Made by a program: the position numbers and the translations under genes. The notes below the pieces were generated by a model. The model was given only the letters and a program-made list of their open reading frames with translations, was not told the origin of the DNA and made no database searches. A stretch of DNA of 64,000 nucleotides from Chitinophaga pinensis DSM 2588 (GTDB taxonomy: Bacteria; Bacteroidota; Bacteroidia; Chitinophagales; Chitinophagaceae), in NCBI RefSeq assembly GCF_000024005.1, contig NC_013132.1, positions 7,372,001 through 7,436,000 on the forward strand, written 5' to 3'. Shown here piece after piece: positions 29,888 through 37,826 of this stretch (its first letter is position 1; the number at the start of each line of letters is the position of its first letter).

Positions 29888-30017
29888 GATCTCTTTAATT
29901 TAATTCCCTAAATTAAAAATAGATATCACAAATAACAATCCAGTCATCATTTTTAAGTCTTTTTTCAGGAAGATAATGCCGGCACCCTATATATCAGCCA
30001 TCCATATATCAATATAT

Positions 30018-30047
30018 TTGTATATAATTCTATAAGTCCTTATCTTG
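30018..30047 (+). promoter_or_regulatory. Promoter of the MoxR-vWA-propeller operon
   Basis: TTG at 30018-30020 and TATCTTG at 30041-30047 with 20 bases between, close to the Bacteroidota TTG/TAnnTTTG pattern (one base missing in the -7 box). It lies 34 bases before the ATG at 30081, the first gene of the five-gene operon. Confidence 0.5.
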
Positions 30048-30080
30048 CCCGTATACCACCTGCGCCAACACATTAAGACA

Positions 30081-30710
30081 ATGACACTAAGTGAATTCAT
30101 ATCATCGCTCATTAACAAGGGAGAAGTAAGGGTTGCTCATGTGCTGCAGGATTTTGACGAGGAAGAGATTCGGCTGGCACGGATACACCTCCAACAATAC
30201 TATACCGACGATATCAACGACATGCCGGGACAGGCGCCCCCCTATAATGAAAAAGCCGCCCTCTGGGCTGCCGCTTATCTGTACAGGACCATCCAGTTCC
30301 TGCTCCTACGACACCTGGAAGCGGCTGAATTAAAGCATTATCTGCCTCCTTTTGACGGCGAACAAACGCCTGCGGCTATTTATTCCGCAGATCTTTGTCT
30401 GCGGTACCTACCGGACATATTCCTGCTCGCAAAAGGAATCTCCCCGGAAGACCCGCTGGTAAAAATACTCGTCGTACTGGCTGCACAATGGCCCCTGTCC
30501 GCCGCCACCATTCCTGAAGTCTCCACCGAAGGATTGTCTAGCATACTGGAACATCCCTCGCTGAAAAGCACTTACATCGACCGGATTATCCTGGCAAAAG
30601 ATTATGAGAAATGCCAGCATCCGCTATGCCTCCCACTGGTGGTAGAAGCCCTTGGTATGCACATCGCACAGTTCTGGCCACAATTTAAAATTGACCTTAC
30701 CGCTTCATAA
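30081..30710 (+). CDS. Small helical component of a MoxR-vWA-propeller ternary system (bpX4-like)
   Basis: 209 aa from ATG 30081; an in-frame TTG at 30045 lies in the promoter. No signal or membrane segment. All-helical, with NEKAALWAAAYLYRTIQFLL, IYSADLCLRYLPDIFLLAKG, an AAQWPLS turn and a final HPSLKSTYIDRIILAKDYEK block. This pattern recalls the component called bpX4 in the predicted MoxR-vWA-beta-propeller systems; the exact name is from memory and uncertain. No catalytic residues are evident. First gene of the operon, 7 bases before the MoxR gene, so probably a scaffold or adaptor made in fixed ratio with the ATPase. Confidence 0.7.
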   Translation: MTLSEFISSLINKGEVRVAHVLQDFDEEEIRLARIHLQQYYTDDINDMPGQAPPYNEKAALWAAAYLYRTIQFLLLRHLEAAELKHYLPPFDGEQTPAAIYSADLCLRYLPDIFLLAKGISPEDPLVKILVVLAAQWPLSAATIPEVSTEGLSSILEHPSLKSTYIDRIILAKDYEKCQHPLCLPLVVEALGMHIAQFWPQFKIDLTAS

Positions 30711-30717
30711 CAACAAC

Positions 30718-31869
30718 ATGGAACCATTGACCTCTGAATCACCACTGATAGACAAGCTGAATGATGTACTTCAACACATGAAAGGCACATTCGTAGGAAA
30801 AGATGATATTATTGACCTGATGGGGATTTGTCTGGCGGGAAGAGAAAATCTTTTTCTGTTCGGCCCTCCGGGTACCGCCAAAAGTGCACTGGTACGCGAA
30901 CTGGCACGCCAGCTGGACCTGAAGACATTTGAATACCTGCTGACCCGCTTTACCGAACCTAATGAACTGTTCGGACCATTCGACATCCGCAAACTGCGTG
31001 ACGGCGACCTGGTAACCAATACAGAAGGAATGCTCCCCGAAGCATCACTGGTATTCCTGGATGAATTACTCAACGCAAACAGTGCCATCCTAAACAGTTT
31101 GCTGATGGCGCTGAACGAAAAAATATTCCGTAGAGCAAAAGAAACCCGCATACTGCCGACGCTGACCTTCATCGGCGCCAGCAACCACCTGCCGGAAGAC
31201 GAGGCATTACAGGCCCTCTTTGACAGGTTCCTGATCAGGGTACGCTGTAGCAACGTAGATCCGGTAATGCTGGATAGCGTGCTACAGGCTGGATGGGGAC
31301 TGGAACAACAATCCGGACATATCCATGGAGGAATCGCTGCCGATGAACTCCGCGCATTACAGCACCTCAATACTACCATTGATCTCAACGGTGTAAGACC
31401 GGAATACATCTCCCTGGTGCAGCAACTCAGGAATGCAGGCGTACAGATCTCTGACAGACGTGCCGTAAAACTGCAACGCCTCGTGGCCGCCAGCGCCCTG
31501 CTCTGCAAAAGGGATAAAGCCATCCTCTCCGATCTGTGGATACTGCGTTATATCTGGGATACAGAAGAACAGATCGAGATCATTGCCGGTATCGTAAATG
31601 CTGTAATTGCAAAAGGAGCACACCATCCACAGGAACATCCGCGCGCTGACAACAGCAGCACGCCGGATGCAGATGCACTATACCGCGAAGTAGAACAATT
31701 GCAACAGCAATGGGACCATCCGGAAACAACAGCAGCCATCCGCGCACAGATCAAAGACAGACTACGCAGCATCAACAGTCGTTGCGAATGGATCAGCAAT
31801 ACCACACAACGCAACTATGTACTCGTCCCTGTTGATGCGCTCTGGAAGAAGATAATGCAATCAGCATGA
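30718..31869 (+). CDS. MoxR-family AAA+ ATPase
   Basis: 383 aa from ATG 30718 (MEPLTSESP); upstream in-frame codons overlap the previous gene and lack family character. Walker A GPPGTAKS (49-56), Walker B LVFLDE (111-116), sensor 1 GASNHLPED with Asn156, and arginine-finger region LFDRFLIR (Arg170). The C-terminal lid domain is followed by a helical tail (about 310-383). MoxR ATPases usually remodel protein complexes together with a von Willebrand A partner; the RavA-ViaA pair is a model. Here the partner is the vWA protein two genes downstream. The next gene overlaps by 4 bases (ATGA), implying translational coupling. Confidence 0.93.
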   Translation: MEPLTSESPLIDKLNDVLQHMKGTFVGKDDIIDLMGICLAGRENLFLFGPPGTAKSALVRELARQLDLKTFEYLLTRFTEPNELFGPFDIRKLRDGDLVTNTEGMLPEASLVFLDELLNANSAILNSLLMALNEKIFRRAKETRILPTLTFIGASNHLPEDEALQALFDRFLIRVRCSNVDPVMLDSVLQAGWGLEQQSGHIHGGIAADELRALQHLNTTIDLNGVRPEYISLVQQLRNAGVQISDRRAVKLQRLVAASALLCKRDKAILSDLWILRYIWDTEEQIEIIAGIVNAVIAKGAHHPQEHPRADNSSTPDADALYREVEQLQQQWDHPETTAAIRAQIKDRLRSINSRCEWISNTTQRNYVLVPVDALWKKIMQSA

Positions 31870-32570
31870 AAGAAATGATCATCGTGCTTCCCCTGGCACA
31901 ACTGGAAACCCTGGGGAGCATACGTACCTGGCCAGACTTGCTGGTAGCACTATCCGGAGACGAAATCTGGGTAAGAGGCATTCCGGTGGAAAGCACGGAT
32001 ATCCGGCTGCGTAAGTTGCCTGTACTGCATACTTACCTGGCGGATTTCGAAGGACGGCTATTCCTTCCAGGCAAACAAACACCGCATGATATCCTGAAAA
32101 GAATGACCTGGGAAGCCCTGACATCTTTTCTCACAGTAGAACTGCCCGTTTCCGCCTTACCGGGAAAGACCCGGCGGACATTCACCGTAAAGCTGGCTCC
32201 TGCTGCACAAACTACAGAACCAGCCGCAATCATTACTGATCTGGCCCACTGGAAAGCATACGCAGACTATGCCCCGCTGGTCAGATTACAGGAACTCAGT
32301 TTTGCAGTATGTGCATCTGAAGAAGTGCTGGTCATCGGCGCACCAATGCCTTCCCTGCCAGGAAAGGCATTCGTACTCAGGAACAACCTGTTACTACCAG
32401 CTGGTTACGATTTCAATCCGCTGGCTGCAGGCGCATTCATTGCAGAGCAGTTTGCCGCAGATAAAGGTGCCATGATATTGTTTCATCCGGATGGACAGTG
32501 GGAACGCATTCCAATGAATTGTTTTGTACATGCTACCAGAAGCGCCATCCGCCTCACCAACGTATTTTAA
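31866..32570 (+). CDS. WVRG-motif component of the MoxR-vWA-propeller system (bpX5-like, tentative)
   Basis: 234 aa, no signal peptide. A short N-terminal module includes DLLVALSGDEIWVRGIPVES; a W-x-R-G motif at this position is a trait of small bpX-type accessory proteins, as far as I recall. Residues about 60-234 are mixed alpha/beta, ending in GQWERIPMNCFVHATRSA. No enzymatic motif is visible. Its start overlaps the MoxR stop by 4 bases and its own TAA shares a base with the next ATG (TAATG), so it is translated in lockstep with both neighbours. A fixed-stoichiometry complex subunit is the best guess; function unknown. Confidence 0.65.
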   Translation: MKEMIIVLPLAQLETLGSIRTWPDLLVALSGDEIWVRGIPVESTDIRLRKLPVLHTYLADFEGRLFLPGKQTPHDILKRMTWEALTSFLTVELPVSALPGKTRRTFTVKLAPAAQTTEPAAIITDLAHWKAYADYAPLVRLQELSFAVCASEEVLVIGAPMPSLPGKAFVLRNNLLLPAGYDFNPLAAGAFIAEQFAADKGAMILFHPDGQWERIPMNCFVHATRSAIRLTNVF

Positions 32571-35062
32571 TGGAAAATCTGCACGATAAAACCATCGCCT
32601 GTTTCAGTGCCCCAAAAGATTATTTCTGGCACTGGACAGAAGAAGGCACTGTTATAGAATTTGCCAGAGGCCAAACAATCTGTTTCAAAGAAGAATTGAT
32701 TAACCACCTGTCACCGGAATATATAACAACGCCGCCCTTATCTGTTTTACTGATTATTCTGATGATCGGGAAAATGGATCGGCAGTCAAAAGAAGGGATA
32801 ACACCGGAGATATTGAAGCAGGAATTATGGCGTGCCATGATCAATCCCGAGAGCTGGTTATACCGCTCCAGCCCGGAAGACTTACCCCGGGATACCAATA
32901 CCCTGCATTCATTCGTCGACCTCCTGTATCCGCTGTCCCGGCAATACTGGCAAGAGGGTAAACGTACAATACTCTTCAATTGCCTTTTCGGACAGATCCC
33001 GCTTGCACTGGCAAATGGCTGGGGAAAGGAAATGCTGGCCATCTTCCGGCAACTGCCGCCGGAAGATTACTGTGCGCCACGGATAGACGACAATAACTGG
33101 TCAAACAAACAGGCAGGCGATGACCTGCGTGTCATGTCCCGGATCCTGCAAAAGTACCCTTATACCGATGTACTTGAACAGGAACTGGAAGCACTTATCA
33201 AAACACCGCCTGCACCACCACCTGCTCCGGCACCGATAGAGATGCCGGAAGAACTGCCATTACCCGCACAAGCGGGTGAAAAAGACCTCTTGCAGGAACT
33301 GACAGAAGATGAACGTACAGCGTATATAGCATTACTGACCCAACAACTGATGGCCGCTATTCACCTGCCGATGCATACAAATCGTGCCGGTGATATGACG
33401 ATCGGTGGAGTGTCAGATATTACCAATAAGGGCGCTATCGACAAACTGCTGCTCAGTGAGCTTGCCAATGAAGATGATGTGCTGATGGCAAGACTGGCCA
33501 ACAATGAAGCCTTATACCTTCGCCGGGAAGAAATACCGGACAAAATGCATACACATCGTTTTATACTGATCGATACCAGTATAAAAATGTGGGGAACGCC
33601 GCATATGCTGGCGATCTCCACCGCGCTGGCCTGCATCATGGACAAGAAACAGCAGGCGACCATCACAAGTTATGCCCTGGCTGGAGATCAAAGCACTGCC
33701 ATCGATCTGACCAACAAAAATGATATCGTAAAGGCCATGCACCTGCTTTCTCCGGCATTGCGCAGTGCCAATGCATTATTCGCTTTCAATGAGTTGCATA
33801 CACTCAATAGTAACCAGGAATTTTTCCTGATCACCAGCGAAGAATTATTCCATGAAACGCTCTTTCAACAGGCATTCGTCACCCTGCGCCCACACAATGG
33901 ATTCCTTGTAACGGTCAACCGGGACGCGACCGTTCAATTATACCGGTATCTCTCCGGCCACCGGAAGTTAGTCAGCAGGGCCTGTATCAATATGCAACAA
34001 CCTGTGCCACGCACTAAAAAACAAGGGGCCAGACATGGTTTCAGAGGCGCCCCTACTATCCTCGACATTCCCCGGTTTCTGGAACAGTTGCCCTTTCCCC
34101 TGCTGCTGCCGGCAAGACGTGGTTATGGCTATAACGGCATTGCCTCTACAGAACATGCCGGCATCTGTATCACAGACCAGCGACAGTTTGTATACTGGCA
34201 GAATGAACATAAAGGTGCACTGGAAATAATGTCCCTGTTTCCCGAAGCCTACATGTCCGTTTACAACTACGGACATGATGAAAAAAACTTTTTTATCCAG
34301 TTCAGGGACAGACATTCGCAGGAGTTTATCGTCTGTCATTTCGATAAAACCACAAGGCAGTTATCAACAAAGGCAGTAACGAATAAACTGAAAGAAAAAA
34401 CGGTTGCTAAGATACACAGGACCATATTCAGTATTACTGACAAAGCTTTCATTTTTGAAACGGCCAATGGCATATGTATACTCGACGTATATAGCGGAGA
34501 ACTGACAAACGTAGTTCCTTCTCTGACAACAGAAGATATCGATCGACTTCGCACAGAGACCTTAAAGACAACCCGCACTAATAGTACCAGTGCAGCGAGA
34601 TATGACATGTTGAGTAAGGTGAAACATATCTCCATTAATGACAAGGGAAACTTTGTGATCAACAGACATGAATTAGTCTTCAGTCAACAAAAAGTAGAAC
34701 TGATTCCTGTTACGGAACCCTTACCTGTACACAACATCGTCAGCACCGCACAAAAGCTTAAAATAAAAGACCTGCGGCAACCCTTGTTTCGCTACCGCTG
34801 GCCAGACGGGAGCGAGGCATGGTTTGACACAGTACGACATATGCTCTATCTCCGTAGCTCAAACAAATCGCTGCCGGAAATAGCGTTGCCGGTAATGGTA
34901 AACGTCGGTATTGCCTGCTGGGCATCCAATGGGGATATCTGCGGACATCCATATTTAAGACCAGATGACGCGAAAGTAGTAGAGGTAATGGCCTTCCATC
35001 AGAAATATATCAGACCGTTCATACACATAATCCAGAAATATGGTACTGCAGCTGCAATATGA
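32570..35062 (+). CDS. vWA-beta-propeller protein with degenerate metal site
   Basis: 830 aa from ATG 32570, overlapping the previous stop. An in-frame ATG at 32498 would lie inside the previous gene. Order: N-terminal helical region (1-205); a proline-rich linker (212-234); helical region (235-325); a vWA domain (about 328-460) beginning HRFILIDTSIKMWGTP; then a C-terminal beta-propeller (about 530-830) with repeated strands such as GICITDQRQFVYWQ, NFFIQFRDRHSQEFIVCHFD and FRYRWPDGSEAWFDTVRHML. The vWA metal site normally reads DxSxS; here it is D335-T-S-I-K, so Lys replaces the second Ser and metal binding may be weak. It is the presumed MoxR partner and target-recognition subunit. Confidence 0.85.
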   Translation: MENLHDKTIACFSAPKDYFWHWTEEGTVIEFARGQTICFKEELINHLSPEYITTPPLSVLLIILMIGKMDRQSKEGITPEILKQELWRAMINPESWLYRSSPEDLPRDTNTLHSFVDLLYPLSRQYWQEGKRTILFNCLFGQIPLALANGWGKEMLAIFRQLPPEDYCAPRIDDNNWSNKQAGDDLRVMSRILQKYPYTDVLEQELEALIKTPPAPPPAPAPIEMPEELPLPAQAGEKDLLQELTEDERTAYIALLTQQLMAAIHLPMHTNRAGDMTIGGVSDITNKGAIDKLLLSELANEDDVLMARLANNEALYLRREEIPDKMHTHRFILIDTSIKMWGTPHMLAISTALACIMDKKQQATITSYALAGDQSTAIDLTNKNDIVKAMHLLSPALRSANALFAFNELHTLNSNQEFFLITSEELFHETLFQQAFVTLRPHNGFLVTVNRDATVQLYRYLSGHRKLVSRACINMQQPVPRTKKQGARHGFRGAPTILDIPRFLEQLPFPLLLPARRGYGYNGIASTEHAGICITDQRQFVYWQNEHKGALEIMSLFPEAYMSVYNYGHDEKNFFIQFRDRHSQEFIVCHFDKTTRQLSTKAVTNKLKEKTVAKIHRTIFSITDKAFIFETANGICILDVYSGELTNVVPSLTTEDIDRLRTETLKTTRTNSTSAARYDMLSKVKHISINDKGNFVINRHELVFSQQKVELIPVTEPLPVHNIVSTAQKLKIKDLRQPLFRYRWPDGSEAWFDTVRHMLYLRSSNKSLPEIALPVMVNVGIACWASNGDICGHPYLRPDDAKVVEVMAFHQKYIRPFIHIIQKYGTAAAI

Positions 35063-37826
35063 TGCACAGACCCTGCACAACACAGGCGCTGCTTTCCTGC
35101 GCGGCAATACGTCGGAGGAATGGTTCCGTGAAATGAATGAATGGCAGATCCCACTGACAGGGCTCTCCGGATTTCTCTTACCGGAACACAAAAACACAGA
35201 AGAAGCGGGCGGATTGCTGGTCATTTTCAACAACCAGCTCCCCTCTCCCGAAAAAATACGTCATCCTTATACCGTCATTAACGGGAACTTGTTTATTCCC
35301 GTCAATGCGCAGATCACACCTGCCATTTCTCCGGTAGAAATGAAAGACCTGTTGATCTGGCACCGGCAGATATTACATCCTGCTATCGGCTTTGTCGGCT
35401 TTGAAACGCGGGATGAAATAAGATTGTCTGCATTGGTAAGCGCAGGCGAATTCCTCTCCCGCTCCTGGGACCATGCACATCCTGGTATGCCGCCGACAGC
35501 AAGACTGACGAATATCGGTATTACACAGGTCGCTACAATGGCCAATCTCAGTGATTTATTGGGGAATGGAGAAACGCCCAGACCCTTGTATGAGTTACCG
35601 GAGGATGATGGCTCCATTTCTTCGGGTCTTCCGCCAGAAGAATATCCCGAAGGCGCCCCTCAGCCACCATCATTTTTCCGTGGAGGCTTGCTGTTTAAAA
35701 TATTAGCAGGTGTTATGAGCCTTTTTTCCTTCGGCCGCAGAACCGGCTCCTTGAGCGGAGGAAATAGCGCTGGCACAGGTGGATCTTATATACAAAGGGG
35801 GCTTGAAAAAATGATGCAGGACATACAGGCAAAAAGGGACCGTGAACTGGAACGCCTGCTGAAACTATTTGAAACAAATCCACGGGAAGCATTGAAATAC
35901 GCCATTCCCCTGCAGGACAATGCATCCGGTAGAGGCGCCGCGCCGCCATCTGACCGTTTAAGTGCGCATACCACAAATTTCAGTCTGGGTGGCCTGTTCA
36001 GCAACGGCGCCGTAGACGGATGGCAGACTAGCCGGGACCATGGAGAATTACTGAGAAAAAAATACCTGGAACAGGCACAGAAAGCTATACAGGATGGCGA
36101 TTACCGGCAGGCAGCCTATATCTATGCCCACCTCTTCAATGATCTCTGGCAGGCAGCAAGATTGCTGGAAGAAGGTAAGTTCTTTCATGAAGCTGCCATA
36201 CTCTACCAAAATCATCTCAACCAGCCATTAGAAGCAGCCAGGTGTTACGAACAGGGTGGAATCCTGCTGGAAGCGATTAAGATCTATAAGGAACAAAAGA
36301 AATTTGAGAAAACAGGCGATCTGCTGATGCAGCTTTCCCGGCGTGAAAGCGCGCTTGAATACTATCACCTCGCTGTTGAACAATCCCTTAGTAAACGGGA
36401 CTATCTGGGAGCTGCACGTATCCTCCATGAAAAAGCAGATGACACCGCCGCCGCCAGCGATATACTGGTACGTGGCTGGCAAAATGACTACAGCGGTAAA
36501 AACTGCCTGATTAAGTACCTGGAAATCAATAACCTGCTCGATAAAACAACAATGGCGGCGAAAATAGCCACTATATATACAGAGAAAACGCCACAGCAAC
36601 GATACGACCTCTTCCTGTCCGTTTTACTCGACTTCCGGGAACAAATGGATGAGCAGGCCGGAAATACCACCACCCAGATTACTTATGAGATCATCAGTCC
36701 ACAGATAGAACGGGGCGATATCAGCAAACTGAACCTCCTGAAAAGGGTGCTGCCGGAAGATAAACAGCTCTCCCAGGATATCGAACGCTATCACAACCGG
36801 CTGAAATATCCGGATGCCAGCATAAAAACAGAGCAGGGTTTCCGGTTGCGGGAAGATATCGAATGGTATGGCGCAACAGCATCCATGCAACAGCTCATAT
36901 TCGTGGGCATATTATCAACCCGCGTCTTTGTACTGCGCATGACCCTAAAGGGACAGCAGAAATACTATTCCTGGGAAAGCCCGCACCTGGCAGAGCAGGT
37001 CAGACTTAAAAGACCGGTCACGCTTCAGCCCTATTTCCCGGTCACAGGCAATATGCGTCATCGCCAGCTGACCATGTTCCTGAAAACAAACTGGGGAGTC
37101 ATCGATATCGGGGCGCCTGAATTACCACTGATTAACCCTTTTCAGAGCAATATCAGATTGGATACCACCGACTATTCTGTGGAAGAGCAACTGGTGGGCG
37201 TGACAAATGATCTGGATAGCCAACCGGTGCTCTTTATTGCCGATAAACACAGCGGAGAACTCCATCTCCAGGATGACAATATGGAAGGGGAAAGAGTGCT
37301 TACCAAATGTTTCAATGAGGAGACCAACTTGCCTGTCATATTGCCCAAAGGAGCAACGCCACTTCAGATCTATGGTAATGATCCTTTCTACCTGTATCAC
37401 AAGGAATATCTGTTCAGGATCGAAAGCCTGGGCGGTACCGCTATATTGAAAATGGATGCAGCTATAGACAATATGACCATTTTTCAGCATTCTATCAGCA
37501 CAACGATCGTAGTGTCAACGGAAAGGGGCTGCCTGTTCATCAGGGAAGACAGTGGAGGATTGAGGAAGATGACAGAGCATTTCACTCCCGGATCGCATAC
37601 CCGCCCCTGGCAACTGGTATCGGAAAGCCTCCTGGTCATGGCGTCAGACCGTTCCGGCGCACAGGTTTATGAATTTATCCCTGGTAAAGGCGGTCGGATC
37701 GTCCGGGAACTGAAAACGGCCGCTCCTGTCAGATTTATCCTGCCGGCAGGCGATCCGGGAACCGTGGTGCTGGTAGATGATAAAGGCAGGATTACCGTGG
37801 CAGAAACCGGTCATCGTCCGGGCTGA
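35040..37826 (+). CDS. Helical-repeat/beta-propeller protein of the ternary system (bpX6-like)
   Basis: 928 aa; ATG 35040 overlaps the previous stop by 23 bases. Residues 1-170 form a mixed alpha/beta N-terminal domain. Then a linker with a hydrophobic stretch (about 213-232, GGLLFKILAGVMSLFSFG) that could touch or cross a membrane. TPR-like helical repeats span about 335-530 (QAAYIYAHLFNDLWQAARLL, HEAAILYQNHLNQPLEAARC, LLEAIKIYKEQKKFEKTGDL). A beta-propeller follows (about 590-928, with SGELHLQDDN, GCLFIREDSG and VVLVDDKGRITVAE blades). Last gene of the operon. It resembles the large component called bpX6; it probably binds targets or anchors the complex. Confidence 0.8.
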   Translation: MVLQLQYDAQTLHNTGAAFLRGNTSEEWFREMNEWQIPLTGLSGFLLPEHKNTEEAGGLLVIFNNQLPSPEKIRHPYTVINGNLFIPVNAQITPAISPVEMKDLLIWHRQILHPAIGFVGFETRDEIRLSALVSAGEFLSRSWDHAHPGMPPTARLTNIGITQVATMANLSDLLGNGETPRPLYELPEDDGSISSGLPPEEYPEGAPQPPSFFRGGLLFKILAGVMSLFSFGRRTGSLSGGNSAGTGGSYIQRGLEKMMQDIQAKRDRELERLLKLFETNPREALKYAIPLQDNASGRGAAPPSDRLSAHTTNFSLGGLFSNGAVDGWQTSRDHGELLRKKYLEQAQKAIQDGDYRQAAYIYAHLFNDLWQAARLLEEGKFFHEAAILYQNHLNQPLEAARCYEQGGILLEAIKIYKEQKKFEKTGDLLMQLSRRESALEYYHLAVEQSLSKRDYLGAARILHEKADDTAAASDILVRGWQNDYSGKNCLIKYLEINNLLDKTTMAAKIATIYTEKTPQQRYDLFLSVLLDFREQMDEQAGNTTTQITYEIISPQIERGDISKLNLLKRVLPEDKQLSQDIERYHNRLKYPDASIKTEQGFRLREDIEWYGATASMQQLIFVGILSTRVFVLRMTLKGQQKYYSWESPHLAEQVRLKRPVTLQPYFPVTGNMRHRQLTMFLKTNWGVIDIGAPELPLINPFQSNIRLDTTDYSVEEQLVGVTNDLDSQPVLFIADKHSGELHLQDDNMEGERVLTKCFNEETNLPVILPKGATPLQIYGNDPFYLYHKEYLFRIESLGGTAILKMDAAIDNMTIFQHSISTTIVVSTERGCLFIREDSGGLRKMTEHFTPGSHTRPWQLVSESLLVMASDRSGAQVYEFIPGKGGRIVRELKTAAPVRFILPAGDPGTVVLVDDKGRITVAETGHRPG

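Follow-up and report, generated by a model that had tools for sequence, protein, structure and literature searches.

A MoxR-vWA-beta-propeller module of Chitinophaga pinensis: predicted anatomy and a proposed mechanism

A subsystem 4 locus in Chitinophaga pinensis

The closest described relatives of the locus considered here are the beta-propeller ternary systems classed as MoxR-vWA subsystem 4 by Kaur et al. 2020, in which, according to the portions of that paper drawn on here (PMC7159879), a von Willebrand factor type A (vWA) domain is followed by a propeller, the bpMoxR ATPase often has a GXXXTAKS P-loop, a subset of members lacks one or both aspartates of the metal-ion-dependent adhesion site (MIDAS) and a third component whose N-terminal region varies strongly is characteristic, though not strictly so. 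In NorQ-NorD a MoxR-class ATPase is likewise paired with a vWA partner, and a finger of NorD lying before the MIDAS strand enters the NorQ pore, as described in the consulted parts of PMC13036017 and PMC9976466. When the NorD finger is lost, ATPase activity persists but remodelling ceases. RavA-ViaA of E. coli is a further MoxR-vWA pair. We analysed a window of 64,000 nucleotides from the soil bacterium Chitinophaga pinensis (positions 7,372,001-7,436,000 on a single 9,127,347-base contig) containing five plus-strand genes, spanning 30081-37826, in the order bpX4, bpMoxR, bpX2, bpX0+bpX1, bpX3 (Pfam). Since all five match Pfam models named for the beta-propeller ternary system, their sequences place the module in subsystem 4, a class already described. 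Consecutive genes are separated by a 7-base gap and then overlap by 4, 1 and 23 bases:

30081..30710, + strand: bpX4, 209 amino acids (PF19920, E=3.5e-63); start MTLSEF shared with relatives
30718..31869, + strand: bpMoxR AAA+ ATPase, 383 amino acids, P-loop GPPGTAKS (PF20030, E=5.1e-97)
31866..32570, + strand: bpX2 (WVRG protein), 234 amino acids (PF19918, E=1.5e-63; 112 homologues)
32570..35062, + strand: vWA-propeller adaptor, 830 amino acids (PF19915/PF19917; AlphaFold mean predicted local distance difference test score (pLDDT) 81.5, predicted template modelling score (pTM) 0.46)
35040..37826, + strand: third component, 928 amino acids, bpX3 with tetratricopeptide repeats (TPR) and propeller (PF19919, E=8.5e-42; AlphaFold mean pLDDT 77.3, pTM 0.41)

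Of 34 loci, 31 share the order bpX4-MoxR-bpX2-vWA-bpX3, and contig ends truncate the remaining three (L035, L036 and L055); the set holds repeats (L023/L073, on contigs of equal length, and L026/L071, with identical protein lengths; L numbers denote loci and G numbers genomes). A sequence-only reading of this DNA had proposed a MoxR-vWA-beta-propeller ternary system encoded by five closely packed genes on one strand. The coordinates agree with that arrangement, and the curated models together with the kept gene order bear out the family call; of the model matches it had called for, those to bpX were found in a conserved neighbourhood while that to vWA was missing. Its description of an effector-free class predicted by comparative genomics to act in biological conflict corresponds to the parts of PMC7159879 used here. 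It knew of no experimental function, and our literature search on beta-propeller ternary systems likewise found no experimental study. Scans with Pfam, NCBIfam and PADLOC revealed no conventional effector module among the five proteins; no NCBIfam model matched at its cut-off and the best PADLOC match was at E=0.0028.

The likeness to subsystem 4 extends from the domains on all five genes to the P-loop, which fits the GXXXTAKS variant, the vWA domain with a propeller that the AlphaFold model suggests, the lack of a conventional effector in these scans and a third component in which, as is typical there, TPR and propeller regions occur. Of the solved relatives, RavA comes nearest to the MoxR protein (phmmer E=5.7e-36), and both loci hold a MoxR-vWA pair. 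The MoxR protein falls far under the NCBIfam RavA equivalog cut-off, scoring 156.7 of 681 bits.

The vWA-propeller adaptor

The adaptor was divided as follows:

32669..33181, + strand: bpX0 domain, residues 34-204 (PF19915 at its cut-off)
33404..33538, + strand: invariant segment, residues 279-323, proposed pore finger (45-residue window with the lowest entropy)
33551..33994, + strand: vWA domain, residues 328-475, with altered MIDAS D335, S337, K339 (alignment and AlphaFold model)
34067..35026, + strand: propeller region and bpX1, residues 500-819 (AlphaFold strands)

The AlphaFold model contains a vWA-like domain plus blade-like sheets, and bpX0 and bpX1 are matched by Pfam; no Pfam vWA model matched the adaptor and sequence comparison gave no vWA link. 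In L072 the bpX0 domain is absent and a 602-residue form of the adaptor directly follows bpX2.

Conservation was read from an alignment (A1) of 94 of the 120 listed homologues (128 found), including the window's own protein and leaving out fragments and some near-copies. Residues 279-323 have an entropy of 0.69 bits, lower than any other 45-residue window in the adaptor, and sit directly ahead of the MIDAS strand; their position, length and conservation fit a finger of the NorQD type, NorD having a segment of about 45 residues in the same place in the consulted parts of PMC13036017 and PMC9976466. In the lone-chain AlphaFold model, 10-residue blocks across the segment have pLDDT values of 40-63.

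The first MIDAS position, Asp335, is kept in all 94 adaptors, position 337 is Ser or Thr in 92, and position 339 is Lys in 64, Arg in 28 and Pro in 2; none of the 94 has the canonical DxSxS, and 23 have the second Asp, at position 423. The alignment shows the MIDAS to be altered in every adaptor, leaving the predicted vWA domain with no standard metal-binding MIDAS. The pattern differs from that of the subset described by Kaur et al., in which one or both aspartates are lost; in the available text of PMC7159879 we found no mention of a basic residue at the third position. It differs also from NorD, whose MIDAS is a canonical DxSxS-T-D; NorQ-NorD moreover has a known client, cNOR, and the available portions of PMC13036017 and PMC9976466 yielded no mention of a propeller or bpX subunit. 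The same genome holds a second MoxR-vWA neighbourhood (L067 5363-12631, G000:C1:912000-930000) with a canonical DxSxS-type vWA (LDQSGSMG) and an adjoining open reading frame (ORF) of 1559 residues.

The propeller of the vWA protein changes fastest, with residues 500-741 (34067-34792) forming a hotspot of divergence. Identity in three relatives is 36-70 % for the propeller versus 89-98 % for the segment 279-323 (36 versus 89 % for L070; 65 and 70 versus 98 and 98 % for the nearer L019 and L020). Across whole proteins, identity to L070 is 82 % for MoxR, 71 % for bpX4, 70 % for bpX2, 48 % for the adaptor and 54 % for the third protein, with 89-92 % in the flanking genes. Every computed ratio of nonsynonymous to synonymous divergence (dN/dS) is ≤ 0.31, the L070 adaptor propeller being saturated and giving no value, which argues that purifying selection dominates; the genes look functional. 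Synonymous divergence in the propeller is 1.25 and 1.29 versus 0.28-0.77 in the flanking genes of the same two pairs; in 34067-34792 it exceeds the flanking-gene value among close relatives by a factor of about 1.7 to 4.5. Segmental recombination was considered as the source of the hotspot but was not shown, as site patterns did not differ between 15 regions compared in four loci (chi-square 33.7, 28 degrees of freedom, p=0.21).

The third component, bpX2 and a probable membrane link

For the third component we aligned 30 homologues with the window's own protein (A2) and distinguished four regions:

35046..35537, + strand: bpX3 domain, residues 3-166 (Pfam)
35676..35732, + strand: short hydrophobic stretch, residues 213-231 (Kyte-Doolittle 1.45, with relatives reaching 3.75)
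36030..36809, + strand: TPR-like helical repeats, residues 331-590 (AlphaFold secondary structure; weak WDR19 profile match, E=0.0011)
36834..37823, + strand: C-terminal propeller, WD40-like, residues 599-928

A clear transmembrane-like stretch is present in 14 of the 26 third proteins examined, and many relatives have such segments where residues 213-231 lie; in the first ORF of L027, L051 and L053, three Kyte-Doolittle windows each exceed 2.3. Judged from these hydrophobicity profiles, the module is probably linked to the membrane. Two features appear to depart from subsystem 4 as described. Among the fairly close relatives compared (31 aligned sequences), bpX3 is conserved (entropy 1.56 versus 2.29 for the propeller of the same protein; identity 92 % to L019 and 65 % to L070) and the adaptor propeller is the most variable part, in contrast to the variable N-terminal region noted by Kaur et al. 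The second propeller, furthermore, is missing from the third protein in 14 of 31 loci. The earlier suggestion of action through the propeller proteins holds only in part: the adaptor ORF of 602-882 residues in complete loci leaves room, by length alone, for a propeller in each, but the second propeller is often absent.

In C. pinensis YS-16 (L020 13182-15977) the third-component gene lies in four open pieces, through sequencing error or decay. A by-eye idea that bpX2 is a duplicated relative of bpX3 was dropped when profile comparison gave it a probability of 0.2, and a relationship of bpX2 to the adaptor was likewise unsupported by profile comparison.

Proposed mechanism, alternatives and genomic context

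We give an even chance to the module being a membrane-associated, ATP-driven protein-remodelling machine that works like NorQD. The MoxR protein would form a hexameric ring, as its family suggests, and the vWA-propeller protein would be the adaptor, its segment 279-323 entering the ring as a pore finger in the manner of NorD in NorQ, as position and conservation indicate. By analogy, ATP turnover would turn the finger and the vWA domain, straining parts held elsewhere. Since the predicted vWA domain lacks a standard metal-binding MIDAS, the target would probably be gripped by the fast-changing propeller, without metal. The third protein, with its bpX3 domain, hydrophobic or transmembrane segment, TPR region and optional propeller, would be a membrane scaffold bringing target or signal to the ring, while bpX2 and bpX4 would be constant structural subunits. 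We suggest only tentatively that the vWA domain has lost metal-dependent gripping, the Lys or Arg fixed at the third MIDAS position taking the metal's place as partner of Asp335; the vWA domain would then be a mere torque hub between finger and propeller, and recognition would have moved to the fast-diversifying propeller, held on a membrane scaffold. As to purpose, we lean towards the prediction of Kaur et al., a protective accessory system of the conflict type, but prefer it only slightly to an assembly chaperone with a dedicated client.

For this described class the analysis supplies an anatomy that can be put to the test, with a candidate finger, a MIDAS altered throughout, a propeller that varies and a probable link to the membrane. 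A complete copy that appears to be under purifying selection turns a general prediction into a few concrete deletion and co-purification tests, and the altered MIDAS, if confirmed, would mean that a MoxR-vWA machine can do without the metal site usually regarded as its point of target binding.

How the module is distributed and flanked bears on its purpose. With the own genome counted throughout, a survey of 195 family genomes found bpX4 in 12 at E≤0.001, of which 10 exceed the cut-off. For bpX2 the count was 10 of 395 phylum genomes; among 40 relatives it was 6, every one of which belongs to the 25 Chitinophaga genomes in that set. Five of these six Chitinophaga carriers hold the module between the same DUF1080 and TetR-ABC1-kinase genes, G586 having it at another site; the module is therefore inherited in place in one Chitinophaga lineage and patchy overall. 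A clean empty site in related Chitinophaga could not be read: of the 19 module-free genomes, many of which are drafts, 18 have their listed matches to the two flanking genes on separate contigs or at a great distance from each other, and the nineteenth, G576, had no TetR match. Weak bpX4 matches in G145 and G038 (L037, L038) were dropped, no module being present there by profile search. The adaptor matched one of 72,556 plasmid records, a Hymenobacter yonginensis plasmid carrying all five genes, and none of 50,697 phage records; in viral contigs, pattern-limited scans turned up nothing related to bpX2 or the vWA region.

The immediate neighbours include defence-type genes at three loci. At L049 425-6947 the module adjoins genes that PADLOC names as a retron type XIII set (RT_XIII, 3.9e-183, with WGR_XIII and SWIM_XIII); at L052, on the opposite side from L049, it adjoins genes for a protein matching SWIM_XIII at 2.8e-66 and for a WGR-domain protein without a PADLOC match; and a YhcG-type nuclease gene adjoins it at L032. 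We compared 133 flanking ORFs of 100 residues or more, within 6 kb of the module at 14 loci, with 129 control ORFs drawn from those 14 genomes at a distance of 100 kb (PADLOC E≤1e-20); the flank sample left out the L032 YhcG gene, which runs off its contig, L033, L034, L058 and all Chitinophaga loci except L066. Defence matches in the flanks were SWIM_XIII in two, WGR_XIII in one and RT_XIII in one (25 of 40 families listed), those in the controls mad3 in two, C3a214 in two, DarG in one and mad2 in one. There was no enrichment between these samples, and a defence-island context was rejected. In the window itself the ABC1 kinase and a response regulator, two of seven module-flanking proteins, match PADLOC models with E values of 6.4e-07 or weaker, and we read these matches as generic.

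The stronger of the alternatives, which we regard as possible though short of probable, is a dedicated chaperone that, in the manner of RavA-ViaA or NorQD, helps to assemble or mature one membrane complex of the cell and has no part in conflict. The kinship to RavA, the shared Chitinophaga flanks, purifying selection by every computed dN/dS, the negative phage and viral-contig searches, the single plasmid match and the flanks without defence enrichment all speak for such a chaperone, but its patchy occurrence, also within Chitinophaga (6 of 25 genomes), the fast-changing adaptor propeller and the lack of an obvious client recurring nearby do not; among neighbour clusters, only DUF1963 (three genera) and a generic response-regulator family span more than two of the compared groups. 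An abortive-infection device, with the membrane part of the third protein as effector and the AAA+ engine setting a threshold, seems improbable: the available text of PMC7159879 does raise the possibility that the N-terminal region, where it bears a membrane segment, is the effector, and the clear transmembrane-like segments of relatives such as L027, L051 and L053 and the neighbours at L049, L052 and L032 point the same way, but bpX3 is conserved rather than highly variable in the 31 aligned sequences, the hydrophobic stretch in the window is too weak for a confident pore and defence adjacency is no higher than in the control.

Among the remaining neighbours, a divergent DUF1963 gene lies directly upstream of bpX4 in L031, L032 and L034, and its product is a possible extra component. 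The motif TANNTTTGY, which we take to be a Bacteroidota-type -7 promoter motif, occurs 32 times in the window versus 23.7 expected, and one occurrence precedes the module:

30013..30021, + strand: candidate -7 promoter element TATATTTGT (weak evidence), ending 59 bases ahead of the first ATG

A triad of kinase, PP2C phosphatase and vWA genes lies near the module at L031 13107-16481. Genes for an RNA ligase, an RNase-T-like exonuclease, a Band-7 protein and a phosphoesterase occur near several of the loci L049-L057, from two other, related families. A link to RNA repair was considered on this account and set aside; the RNA ligases did not cluster, and for the exonuclease, Band-7 and phosphoesterase genes recurrence was confined to these two families.
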